From: Acholoe squamosa
Lineage: Eukaryota > Annelida > Polychaeta > Phyllodocida > Polynoidae
Direction of reading: 5' to 3'
Assembly (NCBI GenBank): GCA_949317995.1
Contig: OX439040.1
Span: 26,824,030-26,888,029 of the forward strand
DNA length: 64,000 nucleotides
In this document: piece by piece, positions 16,326 through 61,561 of the stretch
Layout of the letters: each line of letters begins with the position of its first letter
How positions within the stretch are numbered: the first letter of the stretch is position 1
Notes under the pieces: model-generated
Told to the model about the DNA's origin: nothing
The model's input: only the letters and a program-made list of their open reading frames with translations
Databases searched by the model: none
Made by a program: the position numbers and the translations under genes

Positions 16326-16338
16326 ACTTCTAGAACAC

Positions 16339-19309: not shown

Positions 19310-19310
19310 T

Positions 19311-20860: not shown

Positions 20861-20861
20861 G

Positions 20862-31125: not shown

Positions 31126-33602
31126 TTAATTTAGTACAGGTTGATTGTATGGTAGAAGAGATTTAAGATATTTTCTTGTGTCATTTTTAAATATTTCTAA
31201 GGTTTCAGCGTTCCTTCTACCACATGTTAAAGCATTCCATGTTATGGCACCATGAAACTCCACACTTCTGATATAAGAGAGACAATTTGGAGTAATTGTT
31301 TTACATAAAGGGGCATCATGTTGTCTGGTTTGTAATCTATTTACAATCATATAATCCAAGGATCTCGAGCGACTATACATATAGTTTATAGTATGAGCAA
31401 ATCTTCTGTCTATTAATTTATTACAACCAGTAATATTGTGTATGAAATTTGTATTTTTAATAAGAGGTACTTTCAGGCATATTTTTAAGCATCTATTTTG
31501 AGCATATTGTAGTGGATCCAGATATTTTCCATAAGTTGTTGAAAAGCAGATGTCCGCATAATCCATCTAAGGAAGTATAGTGGTTTTATAAATCTTCACT
31601 GATAACTTAACATCTAAATATCTCCTTAGTAAACACAGTTTATATGTTTTATAAGCAATAGTCTTAATCTGGTTTTTTAGGTGGTATTTGTAAGAGAGAA
31701 GAGGGTCAAGGGTCACACCGAGGTATTTATAACTAGGGACGATTTGCAATATTTGATTATTCAACGTAATGTTAGCTTCTAAGGTTTTTAATTTTTGATT
31801 TGATGATGTAAATAACATAACTTTTGTTTTAGTGATGTTAATAGACAGTTTGTTCTGAATACACCAGGTATAGTAATTTTCTAGGTCACCTTGTAATTCC
31901 ATCTTAGCTTGCTTAATACTGTTGTGTGATGAGTATATTACTGTATCATCAGCGTATAGTCTAATATTACAAGTCTTGGTACACTTAATTACATCATTTA
32001 CATATATTAAAATATTAAAGGACCCAAAATAGATCCTTGGGGTACACCATTAGTTACTTTTTCCAGATCAGAGCTTAAACCATTCGCATATACAAGTTGT
32101 TGCCTGTTGGAAAGATAGTTTTTAAACCAATTGTAGTTGTCAGAGCGAATTCCATAGTGGTGCAATTTAATTAGAAGGACAGAGTGGTCTACTGTATCAA
32201 AAGCCTTCCTGAGATCAATGAAGGCTGAAATAGTAGAATTTCCAACATTCAGTTCCCTTTTAATATCATCAGTAAATTAAGATAAAGTATCTACTGTGCT
32301 GAATCCTGCTCGAAAACCACCCTGTTTTGGGGTCAGAATATTTTCTCTAACCAAAAAACCATAGACTCGGTTATGCACTATTTTTTCTAATAATTTACAT
32401 GGTAACGGTAGAAGGGAAATAGGTCTATAATTATTTACAAGTTTTGTATCACCTGATTTTGGGATCGGGGTTACTCTGGATAATTTCCATGAATCTGGTA
32501 CAGTATTAGTAGTGAAAGATAGGTTAAAAAGTTTTACGAGCATTTCAGGTGAATGTTTAAACACAGTTCTTAAGACCTTAGTTGATATGTTTTCAATTGC
32601 CGATGACTTTATAGTATTTATATCATGAATCAGTTTAGAAACCTCTTGTATGTTAGTGGTAAAAGGCTCAATTGAGTTTAAACAGGTAATGTCATAGGGT
32701 TTCCAGGGAATATATAGGTCTTTTGCAAGTAGAGGACCAATCTGGGTGAAGTAATTGTTTATAAAATTAGGGACTTGGTCAGTAGGAACAGGGGTATTAT
32801 TATTTTCATGATCTACCAGATTAATCTCTTGTTTCGTTTTAGGATGTCCAGGTATAAGATTATTGATGGTTCGCCAGAATTTTCTATGATCATTTTTATA
32901 TTCTTCAATTTGTTCTTTAAAGAAATTTTTCCTGGTTTTATTGATTATTTTGTTTGTCTTATTCCGACAAGTTGAGGCTTGGGTCCACTTGCGTTCATCT
33001 GGGGATTTTCTGGCTGACCATAATAATTTATTTTTGTCCCGTATGCTTACATGTACATGTTGACTCATCCAGGGGTCTCTATGCTTTTTTACAAGAAATT
33101 TGTGAAGAGGACAGATACGATTTAGTATATTTCTTATTGCATTTTCCATTTCATTCCAAGCAACATTTACATTTTCAGTATTATTAAAGGTTGTCCAGTC
33201 ATAGGCATAGAATTCTCTTAGTAATAATTCATCAGGTAATTTTTTATAAGATCTGCCTTCAATGTAGGTAAGTTCTTCTTTTATCTTCCACTTTTTTCTT
33301 ATAAGAAAGATGGGTAGATTGTCTGAAATAAAGTTATTTGCAACTCCAGTATTTATAAAATTTGGACTTATGTTAGTAAAAATAAGATCCAGTGTTGCAT
33401 TTTTTCTTGTGCTATTTTTGATTTCTTGTTTAAGACCAAACCCTTTTAGTCTGTTTAGTAAGTTATTTACCATATCAGAATCCTCACATACATTGAAGTT
33501 CATATCACCCATACAAATAATCTCAAAGTTTTGTCTATTTTCAATTTGTGATATAACATACGCTAGAGCGTCAATGAAGGCACGTTGGTGGCCCATACAC
33601 AT
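31126..33602 (-). pseudogene. ORF2 endonuclease C-terminal part and reverse transcriptase (copy 2)
   Basis: Minus-strand counterpart of 21751-24245. 33602-32277 holds the end of the endonuclease (CMGDMNFNV, LDLIFTN) and the RT start up to GGFRAGFSTVDTLS, then a TAA where copy 1 has a sense codon. Fingers/palm sequence continues to the YADD box (about 31945-31960), where the coding strand is shifted relative to its surroundings. 31902-31567 and 31566-31126 give the thumb and C-terminal region, split by a stop (TAG) just before MDYADICFS. Overall protein similarity to copy 1 is about 85-90 percent by eye. Not functional as it stands. Confidence 0.85.
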
Positions 33603-33993
33603 TAAACAGAATAATTTGTTTCATATGTAATTTTGTAATAATAACATTTGGAATTTCAATATTTTCATCTGATATGTTAAGATGAGAGTACATTTGATAA
33701 TCATGTTTCAACGAATTTTTAATATACAAAGCAACCCCACGTCCAGTTTTGATATTCCCTTTTTCATTTAATACTTGTCTATCTAGTCTATATCTTACAT
33801 AACCGGCCAATTGGCAACTACATTCATCATCCCCGTTTTTAAACCAAGTTTCAGAGAAGGAATATATATCTAAATTTGCAGGATACAATTCTGCACAGAT
33901 CGATGCATAATTTGAATTTATACTTCTAGCATTTAGGTGCAGAAGTCTAAGGCCTCTGGAGCCATATAATTGATCAACTGAGTTGTATTGCAT
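33571..33993 (-). pseudogene. ORF2 endonuclease N-terminal part (copy 2)
   Basis: Starts MQYNSVDQLYGSRGLRLLHL, continues NARSINSNYASI, SFSETWF and RGVALYIKNSL, ending in a frameshift around 33590 within the VY(R/G)PP box. It shows the uninterrupted sequence that is split by the 0.9 kb insertion in copy 1. The start ATG at 33991-33993 corresponds to the 20520 start of copy 1. Confidence 0.85.
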
Positions 33994-34299
33994 AGTAGGT
34001 GTTCATATAGTAGATAACTACATGTACATCATAAATAGTAGAATGTGTACTGATTTTTTGACATATCTTTCCTCTCCAAGTCTTCACATAGAATATATTC
34101 ATGATTACCATCCATGGGGCATAGGCCTTAATGCCACCCCAGTACATGGTTTAATTGAGTGTTAAGGTTGTAGAACACACGGATGGGGAAACTGTCAGGA
34201 TACATTGACTAACCGTCTATTTTACATCTAGATAATTTATATATTATAAGTTAAAGTAGTGGTTCATATAAAGTAATTCAACATTTATATATATATTGA

Positions 34300-34925
34300 G
34301 TGTTTATGTAGTTGATCATGTCTTGGCATTGTCTTTTGCTTTTTGTAGCCTGGTTTCTTCAGCAGTAGGGAGTGGTTTTTCTCCAGTGATGGTGTATCTA
34401 TATTTCATCAGTAGCTCGCCCAACTTGTTACCGTATTCACTGGATGCTATGTTCTCGATAGTTTGTTTGTTTGTTTAGTTTTACGTCCGGGGGCCATCGA
34501 GGAACTCAGACATTCAATTCTCGATAGTTATCTCCTCTTTTTGTCCCAAGTGTAGACCTGTACCATAGATTTTGTGCGGAGTGGCTTCATATAGGTACTT
34601 TCATCTGATTTTGAATAGAGTATCCCTAAGGTTTGGGTGCTCAAATTTAATTGAGATAAGTTTCTCCATGACTTCCTGGTCCATATCATACCATTCGTTG
34701 GATTTTATACATCCTTTGGCAACATACATGGCATCTATGGGAGTTGAGGCAGCAAGTACTCATCGGAGGACATTCATTTGTTTAGATATCAAACACATCT
34801 TAGCAGCATAGGCTCTCTCTATAGAGTCATATTCATGACCTTCAAACTTGATCATACATTGGTATAGGTTTGAGAAATGTGCAAATTCCCCTTGGAATGC
34901 TAGGCCATCCAGTGTTTCAACTGTC
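34300..34925 (-). pseudogene. NADAR domain of ORF1 (copy 2), frame-broken
   Basis: Minus-strand sequence aligned with 19678-20170 of copy 1. It keeps DGLAFQGEFAHFSNLY, the SIERAYAAKM helix and EATPHKIYGTGLHLG. A deletion near 34930 puts it out of frame with the upstream ORF1 part, and stops occur near 34760 and 34600. A 56-bp SINE-like insertion lies at 34462-34517. Finding the domain in both copies shows that it is a regular part of ORF1 in this family. Confidence 0.8.
34462..34517 (-). mobile_element. 56-bp SINE-like micro-insertion, copy 1
   Basis: TTCTCGATAG lies on both sides (34452-34461 and 34518-34527). The insert reads on the minus strand TTGAATGTCTGAGTTCCTCG...GTAAAACTAAACAAACAAAC, with an (AAAC)n tail. 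Nearly identical to 46552-46610. It looks like the 3' end of a SINE or LINE inserted with extreme 5' truncation. Confidence 0.8.
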
Positions 34926-35710
34926 TTAGCATTTTGAGTTCAAAAGGTAGTTTGTCAATGTCTTTGTATTGGTAGAGGTGACCTGCTACTGTGATAGTGG
35001 ATCCTCGTACATAGCAGTCAATGCCTTTGGATTTTGGCAATGCTTGGATTGAATGTAGGTTTCCTTGCATTTTCTTTTCCTCGGGGGAGATGTCATCAGA
35101 TAAGTGTACACCTTTCCATGTCATATTGTTCTTCAGATTTTTAATACTCCCAAAAATTTGTGTTTTGTAGTGCATTGCTGAAAAGACAACTACTATAGGT
35201 CTGCGTCTGGGTTTAAAGTTTGGATTTTTTTTCTGATGAGCTGTAAGTACTTGTTTCTTCCCTTTCCTATATATGGCATCTGCTAGTGAGTTATAGAAGC
35301 TTAGACCAACATCATTGATTAATTGGTCAAGTGTGTCTCTTAGTGACCCAGGTGTATCTTCATTGACTCCATCAATCAGTAGGATTTTCTTTTTTTTTGT
35401 CATAGTCTATTTTTGCAAATTGCTCAGCGAACTTTTCGGAACTTTCTTGAATTTTTCCTATCTCCTCCTCTGATTTAACAATTTTGTCGCTATATGTAGA
35501 GAGTGAATTTGCCACTGAAGTGCATTTTTCCTCAAGTTCTTGAATTGTTTGGGTTGGTTTATCGGGGAAACCATTTGGGCCAAAGAGCCTAGCCTCCATA
35601 CCTTGGAGTATGTGAACTGTACCTCTATTTATTCTTTCTTGTGATGTGACACGGTCTTCTAATTCATTGATTTTGTCAACCAGTACCTTTGTAGAGGCTC
35701 TATAGTCCAA
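34900..35710 (-). pseudogene. ORF1 coiled-coil and RRM-like regions (copy 2), frameshifted at a poly-A run
   Basis: 35710-35372 encodes a coiled-coil start (LVDKINELEDRVTSQERI; ELEEKCTSVANSLSTYSDKI). 35403-34900 encodes the RNA-binding part (ILLIDGVNEDTPGSLRDTLD, RRRPIVVVFSAMHYKTQIFG). The two frames meet at a run of nine A (about 35391-35399 on the minus strand), where one base restores the frame. An ORF1 with coiled coil, RRM and C-terminal region is the known plan of L1- and CR1-type ORF1 proteins; here a NADAR domain follows. The slip could be a simple indel or, less likely, programmed frameshifting. Confidence 0.8.
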
Positions 35711-36642
35711 TTTAGGAAGAAATTTTGCTTAATCGTCATGATATTCATCATTTTCTACATGTAGATTTGGATTTTTGGGCTTTCCGGAAGTGCCCTGCGC
35801 CATGTTGGAAATTAGCTGCAGATGCGGGGATAGTTTCGTACTTCTCGTACGTCCAGACATTAAATAGAATTTTTCCAGTGAGAGTTATTATGTATGGTAG
35901 AATTGTTCATTCTGGGATGCGTTTGCATGTATGGTATATGTTGAGGAGCAGTATAGAGTTTTAGATGGGATGTTTGTCTATATTTGGTGGTAGGCGGTAA
36001 GGAAATGTCAACATACCATGGGTGGCGCCATCTTGGATTTGCCAATGCGAAGCCACTATTTTGCTGAAGTTTTTTTATGGATTCCTCCGTTGAGATGGTA
36101 TTTATGCACATATATGGTGCACATGATGTTTATGTACATGTCTTGAGAAAATATGTAGTCTGCATTGTCTATCACTATAAGTTCGACGGTTAATCCCCGG
36201 AGCCTGCCATCGTATGTGTTTAACCCAGTGCCATAGTTTCGCGGGTAAGTTAAGTTAAATTATACAACAGTAGCTCAAAAGAACAACTATCATATTAAAC
36301 ATATTAGAAGTACCTGGTTTTAAACAAGCATTATGAGATTTCAATACCTATATACACTTTTACCCGAAAAAGAAAAATTTTAGAACTTGCTTATGAGTTA
36401 CCTTTTTAGATTATTTTTTAGTCAGTTTGTCGAACTGATTTTAGTTTTATACAATGATATCAAAAGAATAAAGTTTCTATTTACACACTAATCTGACTGT
36501 TTTATATTTGAACATGGACAGTGAACATCGGAGTGACTTAGAGATATATTAATATAGTACCATTTTGAGATACCAACTTTTTGAGTTGGTTTACAGATCA
36601 AAGGTACATAATACAGTAGTTCAATGTTATACACATACGGGG
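35711..36642. other. 5' UTR of non-LTR copy 2, then Gypsy remnant
   Basis: Up to about 36150 the sequence belongs to the 5' region of the non-LTR element by position. 36150-36642 is AT-rich, probably Gypsy internal DNA left of the DNA transposon. No coding motif seen, and the exact boundary is not visible. Confidence 0.4.
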
Positions 36643-37028
36643 GGATTCACTGAGCGATGTATGGGCCTATTTTGGGTATTATTTAGCTTTGGGGAGCTAC
36701 AGTATAAAATGTAGATTACCATTCTTCCTTATTTTAATGACATTTGATAGAAAACATCTTGAGCTTCAAGCAGAGGGCAGATTTATGTATATCGGCCTAT
36801 AATTTGATGAGTTACAGAGTCTTGAAGTTGGATGACACACCAAAAATGCCTTTTTTTTGCCAATTTTTCATCCTTCCCACCAATATTTTATCAAGGTAGA
36901 CAGTGTTACAGTGCCATAAACCTCTTTAAACATAGGTGGGGGGTCGTAGCCATCTATCAAAAATGCTTTGGTCATGTCACAGCCTCAACCCTCTGTCCCG
37001 CATGTCTTATAATATGGAACTATGAGCG

Positions 37029-38301
37029 ACCTCACGTACGTAACTTTTTTTTTATGCCCCTAACTACCATAATAAAAATGTATCCTCCCTTTCTCTATTA
37101 ATTGTGTTCAACAGGGTCCCTAGGGGGGTTCTGATGTTAAATAAATAAAACTGCTGGTCTGTCGCAGATACGAGCTAGATCTCATAAACCAAAATTCAAC
37201 TCCCGACAATGTTACGTACGTGAGGTATACTTTTACAAGTCTACTTGCTACATAAATTTATAATTCTTCATTTCTAGTCTATTTTGGATTAATTTAAATA
37301 TAAATGGAATAATTGAAGCAAAAATCAAAGCCACAGACCGTGTAGTATGGCCACAGTGGGTGTCTTTGTCTTGCTCGCGGCAAACCTCACCTACGTAACG
37401 AAAATTTATGGCGCCAAACGAAGACGCTTCCTGTTAACCGGGCGGAAGTGACCCACATCCGGGAACTTTTGCAACATGCTCAGAGGATCTCGAACTTGCA
37501 AATAGTGAAGTTTACTTGTCCTTGTTTCTTCCTAAAACCACAAAAAAGGTAGGTAATTCCCATGAAAGTGTGATGGAATATCGATTGTTACGTATGTGAG
37601 TGTCCGTAGATGGCTTTGATTGTGCAAATAATACGCAGAAATGATGTATGTGGACGTAGAATCAACCACAGTCAAATTCTCTTGCCATCTCGGTCGGTTG
37701 ACGCCATTTTTTTGGGCCCCGGACCTCCCTGAACTTCGATTATTTGTTTTTATCACGTACGTAACGTTTTCGCCAGGTTGTGGAAATGGCTCTGCTGAGC
37801 AACTCACGCTGTATATTTAGCCCCAAATCATTGTTATATGTTGAAATTAGGGTTTACCATTGCTACTAGGGTGCATTAGACCATCTTTGGATATTTTGGG
37901 ATGACCCCCCAGCTTGTTTGGAGGGGCAGGGCTGATTTTTTTGTTGAATTTTTTACTTGCTGACCCCCAAAATGGCAGTATTTTGCATAATTACCTGTTT
38001 TTACCATGGTGTATGTGCCCCAAGATCTACAATCAATCATTCTAGTTCATATAACCTGACATTTGGTATGTATTTTGCCAGCAATGACTATTTTTCATCA
38101 TTCCTCAAATTTCGTTACGTACGTGAGTCGTTATCTAGATATGTTGCCCTATAGACCTCCATGTCACTTTTTTCCATTAAATTGCTTCACAATGTACACC
38201 CTAGTGGCCATACCTAATATGCTGGACAGAATTAAAGCACTTACCACCTTATTTTATGCAAGTTCTACACAAATTTGAAAACGTTACGTACGTGAGGTTT
38301 T
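37029..38301. repeat. left cluster of seven ACGTACGT-centred motifs
   Basis: Seven copies in alternating orientation at about 37029 (-), 37211 (+), 37383 (-, CCTACGTAA variant), 37587 (+, CGTATG variant), 37753 (-), 38113 (+) and 38278 (+). Fuller copies read CGAAAAC-CTC-ACGTACGT-AA-CGTTTTCG in the minus sense, an imperfect palindrome. They precede the first coding exon and may be transposase- or repressor-binding sites (inference). Confidence 0.85.
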
Positions 38302-38613
38302 GTTCGTTTTGATTGCTATATGTACCTCAGACACACCCAGACTATTTTAAATTCACCATTAGATGCGCCTATGGGCCCCTCATCCTAAATGATGTTGGTT
38401 GTAGCAATTCTGAAAAAAAAAAATCCCAACATTTTTCATGGTGGCCAATTTTTAGGGTTCTGCTGAACTACTGGACAGTAATGACCTGTCTATTGTTCTA
38501 TCCATACATAATTTTTTACTCCTACTTTGTCATCATCATCCATACATATTCTGTTAATATAGAAGTATTTTTCATTGAGCTTACACACCTTGGTTGTTCA
38601 ATAATTTGTCCTT

Positions 38614-38886
38614 ATGTTTGGCAGTATGTCTGCGACAGGCGGTGACAAGCCACCCAATGATGGAGTTGATGACCAGAAGAAAAAGGTCCCCATGACCCCG
38701 GCCGAGCGGGCAGCGAAGCATCGTGCCAAAGTGAGAGCCCAGAAAGGGGAGGTGCAGGATAAGGCTGATGAAGCGAAAAGGCAGAAGGACCTGCGTGAAA
38801 GACTGAAGAAGGAGGGTGATCCCAACGCCGCCAAGAAGAGGGCACAGGCCGCCCTACGTCAAAAGACCAAGTACTGGCGTGAAAGG
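38614..38886 (+). CDS. transposon-encoded protein, exon 1 (basic N-terminus)
   Basis: Codons from ATG 38614 (or 38626) to a GTAACT donor at 38887, phase 0. Encodes MTPAERAAKHRAKVRAQKGE and a Lys/Arg/Glu-rich helical segment ending KTKYWRER. Such a basic segment opens many relatives of the exon-4 protein that I recall from invertebrate genomes (uncharacterised proteins). It is probably DNA-binding or nuclear-localising. A TTTGGCAG just before 38625 could also be an acceptor from an untranslated exon. Confidence 0.7.
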
Positions 38887-39092
38887 GTAACTATTTGTTT
38901 ATATTTCCCTAATCTGCAACATTTGTATCTGTTGTTATCTGATATAGTAATGTATTTATGTAATGTGAGATTAAGAAGGTAATAAGTATATAAATTCCTT
39001 GATTGAATATTTTTAAAGTTCAATAGCAATGCAGGTATGTCATTTGCTATCATTGCATTCATTTTGTATTCAATGCTACTTTTCCATTTCAG

Positions 39093-39404
39093 GGGGTGGT
39101 TACCCTTCCTGGCACTGAGGGCACCTATGCAGGACCAGTGACACCTGCCACTGACCCTGGAGAGGGCTCCTCCACAGGACCAGCAGCAGAGGCACCTACT
39201 CCTCAGGCCACAGGGGTTAGTAAGACACCTGCAGGTAACGTGGGTAAAGGGAAGGGCCGTGGGAAGACGAGCGCCACGCCTGCGGGCCGACCCAGCCAAG
39301 GCCGGGGCTCCCGCATGCCTGTGGCGCTCTTCACCCACGGTTCTACCCGGCGCCCACGGTTCCAGCAGGTGTCGAGCACCCACAAGGAAAAGGACACTAC
39401 TGGT
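39093..39404 (+). CDS. transposon-encoded protein, exon 2 (Pro/Gly/Thr-rich linker)
   Basis: Acceptor TTTCCATTTCAG before 39093, donor GTAAGT at 39405. 104 codons, phase 0 at both ends. Low-complexity GTGPAAEAPTPQATG-type linker, then a basic GKGRGKT/RPSQGRGSR patch. Markedly GC-richer than the introns. Confidence 0.7.
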
Positions 39405-39644
39405 GTAAGTGAGAATTAAGACAGCCTTCAATGATTGATATGCAATAAGGATGCTTTGTCATTTTAAAGGATTCATGTTCATTCAACTTCATGATGAAAC
39501 AAAATATTCCATAATCTATACATTTTTAAATGTTGTGATTTAAATAGCACAATTGATCTAAATGAATTCATGAAACTAGATATTCCATAACCTGTGTAGT
39601 TTAGGTGTATTTAAGCTATCCTAATGTATTTTTTTACATTTCAG

Positions 39645-39889
39645 GATACTCTGCAGAACCCACTACTCCTGTCATCAGAGGATGAGGAGGCACCCACGGT
39701 CCCCGCCGCAGCCAAGGCAGCAGACGCAGGTGTGGAGGATGAGGGCGCATGCGCCCGTACACGACCGGTCCGGCAGGCTGCAATCCCAGCCCCCCGGGAA
39801 CGGAGAAGCAGCGGCAGATCGACCGGCCATCGGCCGCACGATGCCTCTCCTCCACCGCCTCACAACCTGCCCCTGATGGAGGAGATAGT
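39645..39889 (+). CDS. transposon-encoded protein, exon 3
   Basis: Acceptor TTTTTACATTTCAG, donor GTAAGT at 39890, ending phase 2. Encodes an acidic LLSSEDEEAPTVPAAA stretch and a basic Pro/Arg-rich tail ending PLMEEIV. It can splice in frame to 40427 (long form) or to 40059 (short form). Confidence 0.7.
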
Positions 39890-40058
39890 GTAAGTATTAT
39901 AAAATTGCCCTTGCTACATTGATGCATCATGCTGGTCTTATGGGATTGATGCACCAATGAAGTGCTGGCATTATAATATATTTTAAATCAAAATTGTGCA
40001 TTTCTGACTTATCAACCTTAAAGTAATTTATGTTTTTAAATGTTGCAATTATTTACAG

Positions 40059-40092
40059 GAAGACCATCCGTAAAAATGCCAGTGATAAGTGA
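40059..40092 (+). CDS. possible alternative terminal exon (short isoform)
   Basis: A good acceptor (TTGCAATTATTTACAG) ends at 40058. Joined to exon 3 it adds KTIRKNASDK and a TGA at 40090-40092. This would give a protein of about 290 residues with the basic N-terminus but without the catalytic-like core. It could equally be an unused cryptic site. Confidence 0.35.
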
Positions 40093-40191
40093 AATGTAAC
40101 TATCCATAGTTCTAGTAAATAGTTGGAAAGCATGTTTAATAGTTGCATGTTTAATTACCTACCTGTTAAATGAGTTCAATTGTTTCAAAAT

Positions 40192-40287
40192 GTTACGTAT
40201 GTGAGGTTTCGTTACGTATGTGAGGTTTCGTTACGTATGTGAGGTTTCGTTATGTATGTGAGGTTTCGTTACGTATGTGAGGTTTTC
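40192..40287 (+). repeat. five tandem 19-bp copies of the motif in the last intron
   Basis: GTTACGTATGTGAGGTTTC repeated five times, one with TTATGTATG. It lies between the alternative acceptor (40058) and the exon-4 acceptor (40426), about 140 bp upstream of the latter. Confidence 0.95.
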
Positions 40288-40426
40288 AACTGTAGAGTAT
40301 ATTTCTTTGATTAGAAAGATATTGACAGTGTAACAGTGCATGAAATAATCAGACTGCTTGAATTGACTTCATCCTTTCAATATGCCATGATTTATCACTA
40401 ACATACATGTACTCTATACCTTCCAG

Positions 40427-43085
40427 CCCACGCATATGGATTGGTGAGATGACAACCCCAGGACCGCCCCCCGAAACGACCCAGAACACCCCACCAAACC
40501 TGAAGTATACATCACGTAAAACTACAACCCCAAGAACAAACCGGCGCAACTACCAGAAACGGTTGCTCGGAAGGCGGGCGGAGGAAGCCGAACGGGAGGT
40601 GGTGAAACTGCGCACCCAGATTGCCAAGGCCACTCACACCCCCGGTGTTGCACACAGTGATAAGCGTGTTGCACCGGACGGCGAACTACCCCCGGCTGTA
40701 GCGCACATGGAGGAGGGTGTTGCACCGGACGACGAACTACCCCCGGCTGTAGCGCACATGGAGGAGCGCGTTGCAACCGACGGCGAACTACCCCACACTT
40801 CAGCTCAGCCAGTTGTCTGTGACGTTTTGCTGCAGGGCATCACACAGTTGGACAGCCGTGCCAAGATTAACCTCCTCCGCCAAGCACTGCCACTCGAAGT
40901 CCGTAAGGAAAATGCTAAGGACTTGGCAGGGATTATGGGGGTTGATAAACGCACTGTTGCCAAAGCCCCTGTGGACAAACCTAACAAGCGTTTGGTGGAC
41001 CAAGAGGCAAAGGTCAGGCGCGTGGTGGAGTTCTTGTCAGACCCAGAGAACTCCACCATGCTGGCAGGGAAAAAGGACTATAAGACAGTCAACGGCATTC
41101 AGCACCAAAAGAGGAATCTGCGGGACTTTGTGCATGTACTCGCAGACAAGTACAATGAAGCCAACCCTGACCTGACCATTGGCCGCACAACATTCTACAA
41201 AATCAGACAGGCACGGCCATGGTTTGTCATAATCGAAGACCAGCCCGTCAATGAGTGCCTGTGCGAAAAGCACCAGAACTTTGTGCTCAGGCTCCGAGCT
41301 GCTGGCATAAATGACTGTCCGGACGACCTTGTGACATCTACCACCTTAGAGCAGTTTACACACAGATTGAACACCGAGGTGCGCAAGGAGACCATCAAGT
41401 ACATGACGTGGATCCATCAGGCTGTTGTATATGGGAAGGACAACAAAACAGTGATGAAGCTCCGCCCACATGTTGTTGAGGCAGAGCCTAGAGCTGAATT
41501 CATCCAAAACCTCACAGATGATTTTGGCACCATGGCTGAACATGTGTCCCGTGCTCGTAACCAACACCGCGTCATGCGACAGCTGAGGGAGACCCTGTCT
41601 TCAGTGGAAGTTACGATCCAGATGGACTTTGCCGAAAACTGGCTCGTAACATACCCCGAGTCGCCACAGAGTGTGTACTACTCCAAGGAGCCGGTGACGC
41701 TACACCCTGCAGTCATCCACTATAGAGATGAACCCACTGGTACCACCAAACACCACTCTCTGGCGCTCTGTACTGACGACAGGAAACATGACACTGGTGC
41801 CATCCTGGCCTTTCTACAAGTCCTGGCAGTGTTCCTCCGTGAAAACCTGCCCGAGGTCAGGATGGTCCACTACGCATCGGACTCTCCCTCTAGCCAGTAC
41901 CGGAACATTTCAGTGTTCTCGTTGCTGGTACGCCACAAAGAGCTACTTGGCGGTCTCCAAGCGACTTGGACTTACTTTGAGGCGGGCCATGGTAAAGGTC
42001 CCTGTGACGGGGTCGGCGCTGCTGCAAAGCGTAATGCAGACAACCTCGTTGCCAGGAAACACCTTATCAGGAACGCAGCAGAGTTCGTCGACGAGGGAAA
42101 CCAACTCGACAGCCTTGTCCACTACGTCTGCGTTCCAGTTGTAGACATCGCTGCCGCCCGCCTTACCATGGTCTCAGCAAAAGCAGACAAGGCAGTGAAG
42201 GGCACCATGCAGGTCCATGCTGCTGTCCCTGCCGAAGCTGGAAAGTCACTCGCTGTCCGTGACACATCTTGCTTTGGTAGCTGCTGCTGGGACCATGAAA
42301 CCTGTGAGTCCAAACGTGGATGTCCGGGATGGGTGACACATCAACTCAAGTTCACCAAGAAGGACTCTCCCCCACCAAAGCAGACACGAGGCACACGGCG
42401 GAAAAACACCCGACCCGTCCGTGCTCCTACTACGGTGGACGTCGCGGATGTCACCACTCCTCCCCCACCAAAGCAGGTGGACCCTGACTACAATCCGGTC
42501 GCGTGTAACAAGCGCCCTAGGGACGGCTCTCCAATTGTGGCACGTAAGGGCACTCGAAGTGAACGCGTGCCTACTGCTGCCACAACCAACAAGGAGAATG
42601 TCCCTCCGTGCACAGCACGAAAGCGTGCCGCGGAGAATGCCGTCGCCGTCCCAATCAACAAGCGAGTGCGACCAGATCTACCAACGTCCCCTCCAGGATT
42701 TGACGACCCAAAGCCCGTGGCCATCGAACAAGCCCAGATTCTATGGCAGGAGGAGTACGACTATGGTGACTTTGTCGCCGTGCCCTTCCTGCATGAATCT
42801 ATTCCCAAGGAGGACACCTGGTACTTGGGGAAAGTGATATGTAGGCATGACGCCGGATATGAGGTCAGCATGATGGTGCGGCACGAGAAGGACGCTACTG
42901 CCTTCCATTGGCCGCGGGAGAAGAACGTCTGGTGTCTGGACAGTGATGACATCATGGGAAGGGTACAGTATACCCCAAAGAGGTTTGGCACCTCATCACG
43001 CACTGTCTCATACCAGATCGCAGGCCTCACCATCAAAATTGCCAACATGAAGCTAAAGAAGAAGCGCGACGATTTGACCTCCTAA
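40427..43085 (+). CDS. transposon-encoded protein, exon 4: candidate DDE transposase core and C-terminal barrel
   Basis: 885 codons plus TAA, without a stop or frameshift, after a CTATACCTTCCAG acceptor. Phase fits exon 3, so the fused product is about 1162 residues. Order: coiled coil rich in Arg/Glu (about 40540-40640); three near-identical acidic HMEEGVAPDDELPPAV-type repeats (about 40640-40800); a helix-turn-helix-like KDLAGIMGVDKRTVAK (about 40917-40965); a Cys box ECLCEKHQN (41252-41278); then the candidate catalytic core. Core motifs are MDFAENW (Asp at 41625), HYASDSPSSQYRN (Asp at 41880) and EAGHGKGPCDG (Glu at 41979), with 32 residues between the second Asp and the Glu. A CCWDHETC cluster, a Pro/Arg-rich spacer, and a C-terminal GDFVAV...WYLGKVI...FHWP...VWCLDSDDI domain resembling a Tudor/SH3-type barrel follow. 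I recognise the family only as widespread uncharacterised animal proteins. The transposase role is inferred from the element context and DDE-like motifs. Confidence 0.75.
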
Positions 43086-43190
43086 CCGGCTGTCATGCTT
43101 CATATCACATCATTCTCCCAGATCAGTTGTCTGTCGTTCACAAGTGTATTTTTATGATGCAGATGTTCTATGATTTCTGGAATTCTATCG

Positions 43191-45443
43191 AAAACCTCAC
43201 ATACGTAACGTTTTAGACATGTCATAGTAGAATGAACAATATGGTCCTGATTGATGTTGTATATTAATTCTCCTGTTTGCAATTATTAATAGAGATATGT
43301 GCCTTGTATAAAAAGAGTATTTGAGTTACCCTAGTCTGTATTTAGGTAGGACTGGACTCCCGCTCAATGTTGGAAGTGTTGCAAAATTTAGAGAATTTAT
43401 TTTCCGAGCAGTCATAATGACCCATAATACACTCAAAGTGTCTGGATATGGCTTTAAAATAGCAATTTAAATCATTCTGTACAAGATAAAGTGATGAAGG
43501 TGATCTGTGATGTTTATACGTACTGCTCAGGTGGACTTGGAAAGTTCTACCGAAAACCTCACGTCCGTAACGTTTTCGGGTGTTTTAGACATGTCATAGT
43601 AGAATGAACAATATGGTCCTGATTGATGTTGTATATTAATTCTCCTGTTTGCAATTATTAATAGAGATATGTGCCTTGTATAAAAAGAGTATTTGAGTTA
43701 CCCTAGTCTGTATTTAGGTAGGACTGGACTCCCGCTCAATGTTGGAAGTGTTGCAAAATTTAGAGAATTTATTTTCCGAGCAGTCATAATGACCCATAAT
43801 ACACTCAAAGTGTCTGGATATGGCTTTAAAATAGCAATTTAAATCATTCTGTACAAGATAAAGTGATGAAGGTGATCTGTGATGTTTATACGTACTGCTC
43901 AGGTGGACTTGGAAAGTTCTACCGAAAACCTCACGTCCGTAACGTTTTCGGGTGTTTTAGACATGTCATAGTAGAATGAACAATATGGTCCTGATTGATG
44001 TTGTATATTAATTCTCCTGTTTGCAATTATTAATAGAGATATGTGCCTTGTATAAAAAGAGTATTTGAGTTACCCTAGTCTGTATTTAGGTAGGACTGGA
44101 CTCCCGCTCAATGTTGGAAGTGTTGCAAAATTTAGAGAATTTATTTTCCGAGCAGTCATAATGACCCATAATACACTCAAAGTGTCTGGATATGGCTTTA
44201 AAATAGCAATTTAAATCATTCTGTACAAGATAAAGTGATGAAGGTGATCTGTGATGTTTATACGTACTGCTCAGGTGGACTTGGAAAGTTCTACCGAAAA
44301 CCTCACGTCCGTAACGTTTTCGGGTGTTTTAGACATGTCATAGTAGAATGAACAATATGGTCCTGATTGATGTTGTATATTAATTCTCCTGTTTGCAATT
44401 ATTAATAGAGATATGTGCCTTGTATAAAAAGAGTATTTGAGTTACCCTAGTCTGTATTTAGGTAGGACTGGACTCCCACTCAATGTTGGAAGTGTTGCAA
44501 AATTGAGAGAATTTATTTTCCGAGCAGTCATAATGACCCATAATACACTCAAAGTGTCTGGATATGGCTTTAAAATAGCAATTTAAATCATTCTGTACAA
44601 GATAAAGTGATGAAGGTGATCTGTGATGTTTATACGTACTGCTCAGGTGGACTTGGAAAGTTCTACCGAAAACCTCACGTCCGTAACGTTTTCGGGTGTT
44701 TTAGACATGTCATAGTAGAATGAACAATATGGTCCTGATTGATGTTGTATATTAATTCTCCTGTTTGCAATGATTAATAGAGATATGTGCCTTGTATAAA
44801 AAGAGTATTTGAGTTACCCTAGTCTGTATTTAGGTAGGACTGGACTCCCACTCAATGTTGGAAGTGTTGCAAAATTGGGAGAATTTTTTTTCCGAGCAGT
44901 CATAATGACCCATAATACACTCAAAGTGTCTGGATATGGCTTTAAAATAGCAATTTAAATCATTCTGTACAAGATAAAGTGATGAAGGTGATCTGTGATG
45001 TTTATACGTACTGCTCAGGTGGACTTGAAAAGTTCTACCGAAAACCTCACGTCCGTAACGTTTTCGGGTGTTTTAGACATGTCATAGTAGAATGAACAAT
45101 ATGGTCCTGATTGATGTTGTATATTAATTCTCCTGTTTGCAATGATTAATAGAGATATGTGCCTTGTATAAAAAGAGTATTTGAGTTACCCTAGTCTGTA
45201 TTTAGGTAGGACTGGACTCCCACTCAATGTTGGAAGTGTTGCAAAATTGGGAGAATTTTTTTTCCGAGCAGTCATAATGACCCATAATACACTCAAAGTG
45301 TCTGGATATGGCTTTAAAATAGCAATTTAAATCATTCTGTACAAGATAAAGTGATGAAGGTGATCTGTGATGTTTATACGTACTGCTCAGGTGGACTTGG
45401 AAAGTTCTACTGAAAACCTCACGTCCGTAACGTTTTTTCGGCA
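43191..45443. repeat. six 372-bp tandem repeats, each ending in a motif
   Basis: A lead motif at 43191-43214 is followed by units starting at 43211, 43583, 43955, 44327, 44699 and 45071 (exact 372-bp period) and ending near 45443. Units are almost identical; the last three share small changes (CCCACT, AAATTGGGAG). Each ends GAAAACCTCACGTCCGTAAC then GTTTTCGGG, all in the same (minus) orientation. They lie just 3' of the gene. Confidence 0.95.
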
Positions 45444-45981
45444 TTCGGAAGGGTCCACGCAAATTTGGACCATACCGGCCATATCGAATATTGTTGCAAA
45501 AGAGCAACATATCTTGAAAGTATGAACATTCTAGATGGTGGAGATTCATTTTCAGACAGATTTAGTCTTTTTTTAAGGTATGAGGGTAAAGATAAGAATA
45601 CTAATCTACATTTTAAAAAATTTCGATAATCTACAAAGTTGGCGATGAAGTGTGACAAAAGAAGTTATTGACTGAGGGATTTGATTTTCACTACACTTAA
45701 AGACATATATTGTACCATTATGGACATGAAATATGATGTAGATAGCATGATATTTAATAGCTTTAATGACTGTCTGAATAAAAACGTTACGTACGTGAGG
45801 TTAAAAATATATGGTTTTACGCTGCGGGCTATAAAAACTGACCCGTTTGGAGTTGGTGACTTGAATCAACCTTTCTAATAAGCCAAGATATAGGGCTATC
45901 AATAAATAAAAGTGGCATAAAGTAATATTGAGTTTTTGAATTTATTGGTTCGCAGGCTGGTGAACATCGCTCACTGAATTG
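45444..45981. other. right end of the DNA transposon
   Basis: AT-rich, with one more motif in plus orientation (AACGTTACGTACGTGAGGTT, about 45783-45802) and the terminal inverted repeat at 45964-45979. No coding evidence. Confidence 0.55.
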
Positions 45982-46606
45982 CACCATATATTATATTATG
46001 AGATAAACTCATTTATGCATAGTTAAATATTAGAAGTTACTTTTCGAAGTAATTGAACATAAATGTATAGGTGTAATAAAATATGGGCAAGTCCGAACCC
46101 ATCCTTTAAATAGTGATATGTAATAATAATGTGGTTAAAGATGGCCCACCAGTGTAGTGGGTTAATCTGTACAATAATGGTTAGACTTCAAGTGTCTTTT
46201 TATTCATATCACTGCTTGTCTGCAGATCCATTTGGCGAGTAGGTCGAACATGGCGGTGGCAAACCGCGTCACTGTTATGTTGTGCCCTGATGAAGATGGG
46301 AAGATGTAGATCATCTACGGCGATTTGAGGCTGCATCAGTCTGGTCATCAAGGCCGTTACTGCATCCGTATGGGTCTAAGTAAAGAACTCCAACTTAGAA
46401 AAGGAGTTATCTCTAAGTTGGATCCATGGCAAATCAGTTATTTATCTGAAGTTTCCATTGCACAGGCCTGATCAGAAAACAGACTTTCTGGTGTGGTACC
46501 AATTGGTTTCTCAGACCTAGCAGGTGAGGCAGTCAAAGCAGAGCTGGCTGCTTGTTTGTTTGTTTGTTTAGTTTTACATCCGGGGGCCATCGAGGAACTC
46601 AGACAT
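45982..46606 (-). other. Gypsy internal remnant right of the DNA transposon
   Basis: Contains an 11-bp stem hairpin (TCCAACTTAGA...TCTAAGTTGGA, about 46390-46422) and the micro-insertion at 46552-46610. No recognisable protein. Confidence 0.4.
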
Positions 46607-46610
46607 TCAA
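46552..46610 (-). mobile_element. 59-bp SINE-like micro-insertion, copy 2
   Basis: Flanked by GAGCTGGCTGC on both sides (46541-46551 and 46611-46621). Same sequence as 34462-34517 with about one substitution and one extra TTTG unit: on the plus strand (TTTG)n, TTAGTTTTACATCCGGGGGC, CATCGAGGAACTCAGACATT. Confidence 0.85.
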
Positions 46611-46621
46611 GAGCTGGCTGC

Positions 46622-47293
46622 AGCACTGGGTCCAGACCTGGGGTTCAGTGATATAGATGGTCTGTTCTTCGCTTGTTGTTTCATCAGCAATTTGAAGGCA
46701 GACTCAGGTGTGCCATCCCATTCGGAGAAAAGGCACCCGAAAGCCCCCATGAATTTGGCATCCATAAAGTCCATTTCTTCCCTTAGTTTTCTAAGTTTCA
46801 GATCACACATGCCTTTGGTATTGGCAGCTTCCCTCAAATTTCGATCTGTGGTCTGGCGATCCTCATCAACTTTAGCATATGCTTCGGTTGTGATCCGCTC
46901 AATCTCTCTTCGCTGTATTTCATGAAGGCATTCGAATACGCCTTCAGTCATACTGCGAAGATAAGTCACGCTCTGATTCAGGTGGCCTTCTTGCCAGGCT
47001 TCGAACACCTCCTTCTGAATGTTGATGGGCTGTTGGTATCGTTCTTTCATATACTCATCTGGATCCTTAACTTCTAGGTCAGTTGCTGTTTGAACCCTAT
47101 GGAGAATAGGTCGCCAATACATTCCGGCAGATGACGGTGGTGGTGTAGAAGAACTATCCCCACCACTAGCATAGTCGGAATGTGCAGAGCTCGTAGTCAC
47201 AGTACTCGGAGTCGGGCTGGCAAAAGCGACACCTGGCGTAACACCTACCCCACCTTGAATAGGCAGTGGTTGGTTCGGGTCTTTCATGGCCAC
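46622..47293 (-). CDS. Gypsy accessory frame D (unknown function)
   Basis: Minus-strand frame of about 225 codons from the ATG at 47291-47293. Its 3' end is displaced by the micro-insertion at 46552-46610. Pro/Gly/Ser-rich start, then a helical charged domain (WRPILHRVQTATDLEVKDPD, EIQRREIERITTEAYAKVDE, LKLRKLREEMDFMDAKF). I do not recognise the family. It is on the Gypsy coding strand between integrase and 3' LTR, where some LTR elements carry an extra gene. No signal peptide or membrane segment, so it is not envelope-like. Confidence 0.45.
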
Positions 47294-47521
47294 CTCCCTT
47301 CCAGGACCTTTGCAGTCGGTGATGGGTTCGAAGGTGGACCGGCTCCTTTGGTCTTCCCACCAGCTGTCAGTACCTGCGACTCCTTACCAGGGGTCGCAAC
47401 TGTCTGAAGGGCAGGAAAAATCATCTTTCCTCTTCTCACCTCTGACAACCTGTGCAGTAGTATGCACATTCTGACTTGCCTCAGTTGAGGTTACTGGCAT
47501 TTGAGATTGGTCTACCCGACC

Positions 47522-48502
47522 TCAAATCCAATCATCATAGGTATACTGGGTTCCTGACCGGAGCCAGGTCAGGAAGTCGCCAGCATTCGATTGTCGCATC
47601 AGAGGGGAGACTTGTTCCATACCGCGAGGACCAGTCTGGGACATGATCTCATCGAGGGATGGAGATCGTTTCCTCTCCGAAGTTACTGGTGGCGCAGGTG
47701 ACTGCAACTCGGATCTCGATCTTTTCTTTTCCTTATGGCGTGGATCAACCCCGGGGTGGGGCTTTACTTTGCCATGCTTATCCAGGGTATCCCTGTCCTT
47801 CCTCATAACCTTTACCTCCCAGTGGGTTTCAGGTGTCATGTCGAACCTGTGAGACTTCACATTTCTCGTAAAGTAGGCATTCTGTTTGCCTTCGGACACA
47901 TGACGGAAGTACTCAGTTGTAATGAGTAGTTCATTTCTTTCCTTCTGCTTCAGGTTGTACCATGCACTCATAAGGTTGGCATGCGGCTTATGGACTTTGG
48001 TCATGGCGTCTTCGGCCTTTAGTCCATGTTTCTTCACAATGTGCTCAGTTAGTCGTCCGCGACGGCGTGTGACATAACCACTGCACTTCTTGTTTTTGTT
48101 TCTCTCGTTGGTGCATCGGTATATTGGTCCGTGATGCATATGAGTCTCAACAAGATGTCGATAAGAGCGATCCTTAGAGGACCACTTCTTCTCAGTCTCA
48201 TGCATATTGACGCATACTTTGAAAGGACAAGTCTTTCGTCGGCTAGTATTGTTTGAAACTGCATATTCGAGCTTCGTCCTATGTTCATAACCATAGTAGG
48301 TTCTCGGTGTTTTTGAGGTGTCGCCCAAGCTCGCTACCCACACTCGGTAGAACTTCGAGGGTGTCGGATCGTCTATACTCGATCTCATCCGGTCCTCATC
48401 ATCACTTTCATCATGACGATTCCTGGCAGGTTGGATCGAATATGAATCACTATACCTCTCACAATGGCCAAAATACCTCGGAGTGAACATTTTAAAGTAC
48501 AA
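47522..48502 (-). CDS. Gypsy accessory frame C, Cys/His-rich (zinc-finger-like)
   Basis: 326 codons on the minus strand. The centre has CPFKVCVNMHETEKKW, then HLVETHMHHGPIYRC and CSGYVTRRRGRLTEHIVKKH, suggesting two C2H2-type zinc fingers. A basic tail (KEKKRSRSELQ) and a Ser/Pro-rich end follow. Probably nuclear or nucleic-acid-binding (inference). Homologues not recognised. The frame is open without breaks, although RT and integrase of the same element are damaged. Confidence 0.5.
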   Translation of the reverse strand: MYFKMFTPRYFGHCERYSDSYSIQPARNRHDESDDEDRMRSSIDDPTPSKFYRVWVASLGDTSKTPRTYYGYEHRTKLEYAVSNNTSRRKTCPFKVCVNMHETEKKWSSKDRSYRHLVETHMHHGPIYRCTNERNKNKKCSGYVTRRRGRLTEHIVKKHGLKAEDAMTKVHKPHANLMSAWYNLKQKERNELLITTEYFRHVSEGKQNAYFTRNVKSHRFDMTPETHWEVKVMRKDRDTLDKHGKVKPHPGVDPRHKEKKRSRSELQSPAPPVTSERKRSPSLDEIMSQTGPRGMEQVSPLMRQSNAGDFLTWLRSGTQYTYDDWI

Positions 48503-48681
48503 TCTGGTGTTGGACCAGATTTCCTTCTGTTTCCTGGTGGTAGCATCCTTGAGGGGTTCATCATTCCGATCAATGTTTTCGGTTCATTTCCTCAAGGGAC
48601 TTATCCTTGTCTCCATTCCCATTTGTGTCAGAGATTTCACCTTCCTCAGTCACCTCAAAGGCTGGAACTGGTGGGGGAGAC

Positions 48682-49149
48682 TTACCTTCTTCGGAGTCGT
48701 AGACTGGGTACCCCACACTCAGGTGAGGTCGGTTTCCCAGGTTTAGAACCTGATCGATTCCGGGATCGAGAAGACCTGGTGGATGCACCAGAGTCTTCAC
48801 TGTCGGAATCTTCTTTCACCTCTTTCTTCAAGAGTCTTTTCCTGTTTCGACGAGGTTTAATCCCTTCGAAACCTTCTTTTTGATCTTTCTCTTTTTTGAG
48901 CTTCTTGATGTTCTTTCTCAAGTCAGTTTTCTTTTTGAGGAGAACTTTTCTCTCCTTCTCCATCTCAGCCTGTCTCTTTTCGAGATCCTCAAGGGTTTCC
49001 TCGACAGAGTCAGGGCGAACGGCATCAGGGACTGCCTTGGCGTCTGCGTCTTCTGTCGTAGACTCTTTGACCATTCTGGTGTCCTCCTTCATCAGTTCTT
49101 CGTCCTCCAACAGTTTGTCTTTGGACTCTCGAACTGGCGAAATAGCCAC
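48682..49149 (-). CDS. Gypsy accessory frame B, coiled coil
   Basis: 155 codons, minus strand. Acidic start, then a strongly predicted coiled coil (ETLEDLEKRQAEMEKERKVL; LKKKTDLRKNIKKLKKEKDQ) and an RS-rich basic tail. Could be part of one protein with frame A or C joined by frameshifts; the breaks are not resolved. Function unknown. Confidence 0.4.
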   Translation of the reverse strand: MAISPVRESKDKLLEDEELMKEDTRMVKESTTEDADAKAVPDAVRPDSVEETLEDLEKRQAEMEKERKVLLKKKTDLRKNIKKLKKEKDQKEGFEGIKPRRNRKRLLKKEVKEDSDSEDSGASTRSSRSRNRSGSKPGKPTSPECGVPSLRLRRR

Positions 49150-49363
49150 ACAATACGCATAAGTGCGTTCCCGATCATAAATCCGAGGTTGAATCTGCCC
49201 CCAGCGGTAGATACTCGGCAGTCTTTCATCTACTGGAACCAGTTCATAGATGTGGTGTCTCGAGGGACATTCGAATTCGCTCGTCCTCAGCGATCTCGTC
49301 GACTACCTGAGTCAGTGCGTCAGATCCGCACATGGCCTCAACTAGACTGAAATAGTCACACCA

Positions 49364-49831
49364 TTATGTGTCTTTAGTGATGTCGTCAATTTGGTTGTCT
49401 CCAACGCCCTTGATTAGTCTCATTTGTAAATCCATGGAGATACAGTCTGGTGGCAGACCCTTACCTCCAAGCATCTGAGGAGAGATCCATCGGTCCTTAC
49501 CCAAAGCGGTACGGATGTACCCCTTCATTACATTGATCCATCCTCTCAGTGTTGTCTCTAGTCCTTGGACAGTGACTGGCACTTCGAGAATGGCGTCGGT
49601 CGATTTGGGGATAACTACCTCCACTCTGGAGTCAGCTCCTACGTTCAACAGAACTTCGGATAGGTGACTTGATCTTTCGGGAGGCGGTGGTGCTGGTGTA
49701 GAACCATCGGTTGTTATTGTCGGTTCGGCAATGACCTCCGAAGTGTCCATTGCCCCCTCGGAGTTGGTCGCTGGTACAGGGTGTCCCTTGGGTTCGGTGT
49801 TTAAGGTCGCCATAACCTGGCTCTGGGCCAT
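49364..49831 (-). CDS. Gypsy accessory frame A
   Basis: 155 codons, minus strand. Thr/Pro/Glu-rich start, then a possible folded part (VEVVIPKSTDAILEVPVTVQ, LRGWINVMKGYIRTALGKDR). Begins just downstream of the broken integrase. Family not recognised; it could equally be an N-terminal Gag-like protein left by rearrangement. Confidence 0.4.
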   Translation of the reverse strand: MAQSQVMATLNTEPKGHPVPATNSEGAMDTSEVIAEPTITTDGSTPAPPPPERSSHLSEVLLNVGADSRVEVVIPKSTDAILEVPVTVQGLETTLRGWINVMKGYIRTALGKDRWISPQMLGGKGLPPDCISMDLQMRLIKGVGDNQIDDITKDT

Positions 49832-49913
49832 TGTAGTAGCCCAAGAGCAGTCAGTCCTTTTCTACACCCTCCTTTCAATGGTATTCAATACACCGCCTCA
49901 CTCAAGAATTGGT

Positions 49914-50483
49914 TTAATCGCAGTCGAAACTCCCACCAAAGACCATCCCATCCGGAAACCAATTTCTTAGATGACAAGGGTTCATGAATTCGAATTCCCT
50001 TCCTTGGTCACTGTGGATCATTAGAGGTGCGCCTAGATGTAGGACCCATCCTCTGACAAATGCACTAGCACAAGTAGCGGCTTTGCGATTGGGTAGTGGG
50101 AATACACAAGTATATTTTGTGTAGTAGTCCGAAACTACCATCATGCAAGTGTTCCGAGGTGTGGGCTCCAGTCCACTTATAATGTCAATAGCTATTCGGG
50201 CTAATCTTACCCCGAACAGTTCTTGCATCAAGGGCATTTTACCCATACCGGGGCCGAGTTTGTTCTTACCAAATTCGGGGCATGTCATGGCCCATCTGGT
50301 AAGATTGCTACTCATTCCAGGCCAATAATAGTGTCTGGAGAGGCGTTCGAGTGACCTCTTCTTCCCGAAATGTCCACTTGTTTTGTGGCCATGACAGAAA
50401 TACATGATGTCACCTCTCATTGCCATAGGGATCACTATTTGCAAAATTTTATCCTTGGTAGGACAAGTCTTCCAACGGTCCAC
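49914..50483 (-). pseudogene. Gypsy integrase, 3'-truncated
   Basis: Minus strand. The zinc-binding region (HGHKTSGHFGKKRSLERLSR, HYYWPGM) is followed by TCPEFGKNK, where the usual second Cys of the CxxC pair is Phe. The catalytic core has the first Asp (RIAIDIISGL) and the second Asp (MIHSDQGREFEF). The sequence then diverges before the third catalytic residue and stops. Not an active integrase. The motif style (YYWPGM, SDQGREFE) is typical of Ty3/Gypsy pol. Confidence 0.88.
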
Positions 50484-50620
50484 TGAGCTAAAAACTTACG
50501 AGTTTCTCGATCTTCAATAGAGATGGCAGACCTTTCTGGCTTCTTACCATTCTTGAGGAGTAGAATTACTCGTTTTATTGCAGGGTCATTCTGTTGGAAC
50601 TGCTTGATGGTCTCCGGGGA

Positions 50621-51361
50621 TCATTCAATAACATTTTCCACACAGAGGTCTGGCAAAGGTTCGATCTTTTGAGCTGTTCCTCGGGTTCGAACCCCTGCCA
50701 ACACAGCATTGTGTGCCCCGCAATCATCACAATCAAGTTTCTGACACTTTCGCATCGGTCTACTAATCATCCCTTCAGCATCCTTGAAGTTTAGAAGCCA
50801 CTTCAAAGACTCCGCTTCGAGTTTCTTTTTCAGAGGCAACCTCCGATAAGCAATCTTAAAGGGTTTAGCATCCCCAGTATCAATGCTGTGTAGAACTTTA
50901 TCAGTCCTACCCACCGGGCCTCCATCCTCCCCAAAGGCAGGGAAATAGTCTGTTAACAGATTTCGAAGTCTCCTTTTCTCATCACCGTTAGTCAATGAAG
51001 AGTCGCCAACAAGCTTGTCCAGTTCGTCTGTCAATTTCTTAACAGGTATCGGGCCTGCCTCCCTTTTGAAGTGGGCTTTGGAAATACATTCAGTTAGGGA
51101 CATTTGCCCTACATGTTCATTCTTATGTAAATAAATAAGGTCAGATCCTCGGTTTGTCACTGGGACGACTGTCCAAGCTCCATCACCAACCAGAGTATCC
51201 ACAGATTCCAATCTTAAAGAACCCAGCCTCTCCTGACTAGGTTCAAACACAGCATTGGCACCTTTGAACGCTAGGTTCAAGGAGCACAACACGTCACAAG
51301 TAGTTCCAGGAAGAAATTTCACAGTCTGCACTACTGTCACGACAGAAGATACATGCCTCAA
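50621..51361 (-). pseudogene. Gypsy pol: RT start joined to RNase H end (internal deletion)
   Basis: Minus-strand frame of 246 codons. It begins with the protease-RT linker, reaches the RT entry region (LLTDYFPAFGEDGGPVGRTD, then KPFKIAYRRLPLKKKLEA) and passes directly to ESLKWLLNFKDAEGMI, which belongs to the end of RNase H. A CQKLDCDDCG segment follows. The whole RT palm, including YxDD, and most of RNase H are missing with the frame kept. This copy therefore cannot make active RT and would depend on other copies. Confidence 0.85.
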
Positions 51362-51382
51362 TACATAGCGGATTTCGCAGTT

Positions 51383-61070: not shown

Positions 61071-61093
61071 ATTTATATGTGAGTAATCGACAT

Positions 61094-61163
61094 GTGGATC
61101 AACACGGTAAAAAGTACACCCTCGAGGGGGTGCACTGGTGTACCTTTTACAGTGTTGACCCAC
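61094..61163. repeat. central palindrome (copy 2)
   Basis: Same imperfect palindrome as 15881-15950, around CCCTCGAGGGGG. Confidence 0.8.
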
Positions 61164-61547: not shown

Positions 61548-61561
61548 CTTTTAGAACACAT

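Follow-up and report, generated by a model that had tools for sequence, protein, structure and literature searches.

The stretch analysed here is a 64-kb window of the genome of the polychaete Acholoe squamosa (contig OX439040.1), to whose first letter all positions below refer. It contains a 9347-bp DNA transposon with a single four-exon gene and 20 copies of a short, partly palindromic site. We call the family of this element A and compare it with two sister families, B and C, from the same genome. The features of the window copy are as follows.

36635–36638, no strand: left 4-bp target site duplication (TSD), ATAC, with one mismatch to the right one
36639–45985, plus strand: transposon of 9347 bp, both ends common to 10/10 fetched near-identical copies whose flanks differ
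36639–36660, plus strand: left terminal inverted repeat (TIR), GGGGGGATTCACTGAGCGATGT, 18/22 against the right end, boundary set by the copies
37030–38297, no single strand: 5′ block of seven dispersed sites (37030+, 37210−, 37385+, 37586−, 37751+, 38113−, 38282−)
38626–38886, plus strand: exon 1, a basic N-terminal region with an AERxx..(Y/H)R motif
39093–39404, plus strand: exon 2
39645–39889, plus strand: exon 3
40191–40282, minus strand: intron-3 cluster, five sites in a 19-bp tandem array
40427–43085, plus strand: exon 4 including the stop codon, with a long helix, helix-turn-helix (HTH)-like helices, catalytic domain and Tudor-like end
40854–40964, plus strand: HTH-like helices (LPLEVRKENAKDLAGIMGVDKRTVAKA), predicted, exon-4 residues 144–179
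41607–42119, plus strand: RNase H-like catalytic domain, with D codons at 41625, 41880 and 42006
42762–43082, plus strand: C-terminal Tudor/Agenet-like domain (weak; five Tudor/Agenet-type rows, E 0.023 to 0.28)
43183–45436, plus strand: 3′ block of seven sites, the last six at 372-bp spacing, with a site at the start and end of the array
45785–45800, minus strand: last site on the right, opposite in orientation to the outermost one on the left
45964–45985, minus strand: right TIR, 18/22 against the left, boundary set by the copies
45986–45989, no strand: right 4-bp TSD, ATAT

A search of the 1.48-Gb host genome with exon 4, in which 51 of 1883 candidates were scored so that all copy counts are lower bounds, returned at least 57 rows. 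Family A accounts for at least 15 full-length exon-4 copies with 99–100% identity, 12 of them free of stops (the window copy is included in both counts), and family B for at least 15 rows with 77–78% identity to the window. At least four further main rows lie at 62–64%; one has 12 stops, and two of the other three, as read, are family C. The remaining rows are partial, diverged or small pieces. The comparison covered the two termini of ten family-A copies, chosen as the best-scoring among the intact ones, together with the window copy, stretches of 12–13 kb around two B and two C copies, and 5.7-kb stretches of seven B copies.

All ten fetched family-A copies carry GGGGGGATTCACTGAGCGATGT at the left and CTCACTGAATTGCACC at the right within different flanks, and 9 of 11 copies, counting that of the window, have a perfect 4-bp TSD. 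Among the ten, the duplication is ATAT on both sides in eight, TCAT on both sides in one and ACAG/ACTG in one; that of the window copy is imperfect (ATAC/ATAT, one mismatch). Ends shared by several copies and bounded by duplications are the mark of cut-and-paste transposition, and the element is a young mobile transposon. A sequence-only reading of the window had called it a DNA transposon and asked for a search for further copies with the same ends. That reading had also described a 16-bp TIR matching at 15/16 positions. The repeat exists (36645–36660 and 45964–45979), is the sole pair of such quality between the 2-kb flanks, and has a counterpart in only 1 of 60 randomised flank pairs; the other copies extend it to an imperfect TIR of 22 bp (18/22) and place the true ends at 36639 and 45985. 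We rejected a 7-bp target duplication, TCACTGA. In the window copy this heptamer recurs perfectly and in direct orientation at the two ends, and such a duplication would account for the lone TIR mismatch; yet all ten other copies carry it in different flanks, and it is therefore the element's own sequence. The first 840 bases are 100% identical to those of the window in five copies and 99.88% identical in the other five; by this measure the copies must be very recent, and the element is probably still mobile today.

Joined, the four exons give 1158 codons with no internal stop, in line with the intact gene of about 1160 codons that had been read from the sequence. The triad D673–D758–D800 (whole-protein numbering) is invariant in 84/84 aligned sequences, and E519 (exon-4 numbering) was discarded as the third catalytic residue (82/84, compared with 84/84 for D528). 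The predicted structure has an RNase H-like fold by VIA-align Z, the fold whose absence was to have counted against a transposase, and the protein thus combines the predicted fold with the three acidic residues of DDE/D transposases. The best 50 VIA-align rows include no hAT, P-element or RAG chain, which excludes nothing. The modelled helices at exon-4 residues 144–179 may form an HTH, and one of 47 family members matches Pfam HTH_22. The motif in exon 1 recurs in 19 of 199 relatives compared with 1 of 199 shuffled N-termini; searched by itself against Pfam, this exon reached no more than a sub-cut-off row for glycerate kinase (E 0.18). The Tudor/Agenet rows are five of seven weak rows in a PDB sequence search, and a domain match occurs in 1 of 47 members; a further PDB sequence search gave one weak ribosomal-protein row.

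Relatives were scored among only the 7999 candidates sharing most words, making relative counts lower bounds, and scans of viral and genome contigs gave 10 and 21 pattern matches, none of which was confirmed. One relative, P0195, is named after vertebrate vertnin; judged from P0195 alone, whose sole Pfam trace is a weak OTU match, we rejected this tie. Added peptidase-like domains were seen on transposase relatives, namely Ulp1 (PF02902) on P0080 and the weak OTU match on P0195.

With up to 3 mismatches, the site core CCTCACGTACGTAACG occurs 20 times in the window, on both strands and always within 37030–45800, whereas 100 first-order (dinucleotide) random sequences gave a mean of 0.12 and a maximum of 2 matches. 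The earlier count of about 20 sites in both orientations, with none elsewhere in the window, therefore holds at this threshold; at exactly 4 mismatches a few additional places appear, both inside and outside the element. Exact ACGTACGT is present six times, all inside the element. When one site is kept per tandem array, 12 non-redundant sites remain, with a near-invariant part CTCAC-N-TACGTAAC. A 28-base form of the site pairs with itself at 24/28 positions, which bears out the imperfect palindrome originally described, although its outer arms (CGAAAAC...GTTTTCG) are conserved at some sites only. None of the 20 sites overlaps the 3477 exon bases. In ten copies the right arm holds 3, 5, 6, 6, 7, 7, 7, 7, 8 and 8 sites, and the arm lengths of nine differ by whole 372-bp units (one by a single base more), for which unequal exchange between sites would be the simplest origin. 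The tenth copy (C5, locus L034) has a shorter right arm that is off the 372-bp register. The 58,845 bp of flanks outside the ten copies contain four A-type sites, all adjoining this copy beyond its assigned right end, where there is perhaps a nested or broken second copy.

The sister families carry sites of their own. Family B, read in two 12.2-kb stretches, has the ends GGGGGGATTCAACTT, the TSDs ACTT and ATAT, and 13 and 11 copies of the site TTCAGCGTTGGTCAC. In family C, read in two 13.2-kb stretches, the ends of the first copy read GGG[T/C]GATTCTTGTGAAACCTCCC, and the second copy lacks some G at its left end; the TSDs, judged by eye, are ATAA and ATAT, and the site TGTAATGCGCGTGATGA is present 12 and 6 times. 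The site sequences are private to their families in the copies read: when 3 mismatches or fewer are allowed, A/B/C sites number 20/0/0 in the A element, 0/13/0 and 0/11/0 in the B elements, and 0/0/12 and 0/0/6 in the C elements, and the seven 5.7-kb B loci contain no A sites. The families arrange their sites in a similar way: a 5′ block comes first, the intron preceding exon 4 holds at least one site, and a 3′ array follows whose units measure about 360–390 bp. With strands named so that both arrays are plus, and with a BLAST offset of 498 bases, all five B 5′ sites lie within 11 bp of an A site of the same orientation by our own arithmetic; the outermost right site also coincides in A and B (offset 406). 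The best ungapped matches between cores cover 10 positions for A and reversed C, 7 for A and B, and 6 for B and C, and the three sites may be diverged versions of one ancestral site.

The sites might be no more than selfish short repeats, spread inside the element by conversion or slippage and without a binding role. The 372-bp array starts and ends at sites and the number of right-arm sites varies from 3 to 8 among ten otherwise near-identical copies, as such spreading would have it; against this, the 12 non-redundant sites share a core while their outer flanks are not kept, and the five B 5′ sites lie close to A sites of the same orientation. We regard this explanation as very improbable. 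The alternative that the sites are read not by the transposase but by a host factor (for transcription, insulation or silencing) is better placed, as some sites are intronic and others lie as far as about 2.8 kb from the right end, and different host factors could account for the family-specific spelling. It is nonetheless unlikely, given that one shared host factor is hard to fit to three families in one genome with mutually exclusive site sequences, two of which have 95%-identical catalytic domains.

To see how the proteins differ between families, we compared them region by region. Between A and B, identity is 95.3% in the catalytic core, 83.6% in the pre-catalytic part, 74.1% in the HTH-like helices, 74.3% in the long helix and 51.4% in the Tudor-like end, and it is 36%, 51% and 39% in exons 1, 2 and 3. 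Between A and C, it is 78.9% in the catalytic part, 37.0% in the HTH-like helices and 81.3% in the Tudor-like end; exons 2 and 3 of A have matches in C and exon 1 has none. Judged from these comparisons, the change of site appears to accompany divergence of the N-terminal half, without singling out any one part as a reader of the sites. The Tudor-like end (42762–43082, compared with the C copy L055/L056) is more alike between A and C (81%) than between A and B (51%), although B is otherwise nearer to A, which suggests exchange of this domain between families.

The idea that the transposase binds the sites, which the sequence-only reading had put forward, is strengthened because the site sequence changes with the transposase family; this pattern suggests joint change of the enzyme and the sites. 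Our tentative proposal, to which we give slightly less than even odds, is that a transposase and a dozen or more dispersed putative binding sites co-evolve as a lock-and-key set, with private site sequences and a similar layout in each of three families, and that the sites of a family are rewritten in concert, perhaps through conversion or because an array expands from a single altered site, which would stop cross-mobilisation. In the limited part of the literature consulted, we met no description of such switching of sites between families.

Several observations weigh against the explanation that we favour overall, given further below. The second C copy has only six sites and no 5′ block, and the 5′ stretch of the first C copy, with five sites, finds no alignment in it. 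B offers no counterpart for two of the A 5′ sites, and the intron sites of A and B are in opposite orientation. Exons 2 and 3 have diverged to nearly the extent of exon 1, so the contrast with the core could reflect nothing more than fast N-terminal evolution. The four A-type sites beside copy C5 lie outside its assigned end, and the ten A copies were the best-scoring intact ones, making their closeness partly a matter of choice. The RNase H-like fold was recognised by VIA-align Z, on which Argonaute-type proteins also score 8.3–9.8. With Foldseek by itself, which placed NurA and herpesvirus terminase nucleases close to the top, nothing reached E ≤ 0.001, and the same holds for a viral fold library. 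Finally, the match to Sola, set out below, was made to published descriptions of that group.

We also asked which published group the element resembles. Sola elements have a DDD (three-aspartate) transposase, 4-bp duplications, a size of mostly 2–9 kb with some over 15 kb, and TIRs of 11–1124 bp (PMC10741241), and Sola2 has AT-rich duplications such as ATAT and short TIRs (PMC3627910). The present element shares the DDD triad, the AT-rich 4-bp TSDs (ATAT flanking each end of 8/11 A copies; ACTT and ATAT in B; ATAA and ATAT in C) and a short imperfect TIR within the published range (22 bp, 18/22); its 9347 bp are just over the usual size and inside the published extremes. As the triad and the AT-rich 4-bp duplications fit Sola/Sola2, the new superfamily envisaged in the sequence-only reading is not supported, and the element is best described as Sola2-like, the best fit among published groups, an assignment based on published features. 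The descriptions consulted mention neither dispersed internal site arrays nor sites that switch between families; we count the private site sets as the variant part.

An unnamed DDD superfamily distinct from Sola, with convergent triad and 4-bp duplications, would accommodate the lack of any shared Pfam family (none in the exon-4 protein of the window, and none in more than 1 of 47 members, these being that protein and 46 relatives), the named relatives, which are almost all uncharacterised, hypothetical or unnamed, and a literature text search in which the strings HGKGPCD, HGKSPCD, HGKGPCDG and MDFAEN found no match. We consider it improbable, since the size and composition of the duplications, TIR length, element size and triad all fit Sola as published (PMC10741241, PMC3627910), and since relatives span several animal phyla, so that a catalogue such as Repbase would probably hold the family. 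Membership of the superfamilies with a C/DxxH motif after the second catalytic D (hAT, P, MuDR, Kolobok and Dada; PMC3706591) was rejected, as [CD]xxH occurs between the second and third D in only 2 of 47 rows.

Other systems offer parallels for the sites. Hermes, a hAT element, has many subterminal repeats (17 and 14 in its two ends) and a quasi-palindromic subterminal pair that two N-terminal BED domains bind cooperatively and for which a role in first recognition of the left end is proposed (PMC10368747). The abundance of repeats and the quasi-palindromic form are similar; Hermes, however, reads a short AAGT motif in AT-rich surroundings, whereas the sites here measure about 15 bp, and some of them are intronic. 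The piggyBac transposase binds a palindrome as a dimer, through two of its C-terminal domains, and piggyBat has a third, extra site by which activity is restricted (PMC11707139). These palindromic internal sites resemble ours, but few per end are described there compared with about 20 here, and piggyBac integrates at TTAA (PMC7351741). KolobokP and Dada are likewise eukaryotic, known in animals, and combine a DDD/E-type transposase with direct or subterminal repeats; Dada elements are 4.7–11.0 kb and nearly all have introns (PMC9587614, PMC3706591). Dada inserts in small RNA genes and differs in its 6–7-bp TSDs, DxxH motif and lack of a TIR (here a 4-bp TSD and a TIR), and KolobokP in its long terminal direct repeats and, mostly, a second nuclease gene. 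By analogy with Hermes and piggyBac/piggyBat, the sites may serve to gather the transposase and to bring the two ends together, with activity perhaps tuned by the length of the array.

Overall, we favour, with a probability of roughly 0.7, the view that this is a very young, autonomous DNA transposon of the cut-and-paste type, Sola-like and closest to Sola2, whose transposase would bind private dispersed sites. The single gene would make a DDD transposase in which a basic N-terminal region is followed by a long helix, perhaps used for dimerisation, then by HTH-like helices, an RNase H-like core and a Tudor-like end. The enzyme would cut at the GGGGGGATTC ends and insert the element at 4-bp AT-rich targets, with a preference for ATAT. 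As a dimer or larger complex, it would also bind the roughly 20 dispersed, partly dyad-symmetric internal sites, thereby gathering the two ends and perhaps also regulating its own gene, and in the sister families a shift in site specificity would have gone along with change in the N-terminal half of the protein.

Elsewhere in the window, 19309–24448 and 30923–35279 are two inverted copies of one unit (pieces 78–85% identical), in which a NADAR-domain reading frame precedes a reverse transcriptase of the long interspersed nuclear element type; the Pfam hit is in the 19309–24448 copy only. To our knowledge, a NADAR domain in a retroelement would seem unusual. In 9.3-kb windows, the observed/expected CpG ratio reaches about 0.6–0.73 at 36000–52000 compared with 0.34–0.55 in the others, as expected of recent arrivals, and an integrase-type frame (49914–50495) lies inside this stretch. 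Tandem arrays of 29 bp with long open frames occupy 15466–16785 and 60673–62041, and the stretch 14962–16777 is repeated at 60166–61998 with 90% identity. A 56-bp satellite (25 copies, 93% matches) occupies 24845–26260.

How a DNA-binding protein and its many scattered targets can switch specificity jointly, with no dead intermediate on the way, is a long-standing question. Swap experiments are straightforward here, as one genome holds three families with 79–95% identical catalytic cores, a similar layout and, in the copies read, mutually exclusive sites. Family A is young and has several intact copies, and it may be usable as an active animal transposon; we know of few active members of the Sola-type group. 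Many animal proteins that are related to this transposase and annotated as 'uncharacterized' can now be read as likely DDD transposases. If the proposal is true, each family would have its own recognition system, and cross-mobilisation would be blocked.

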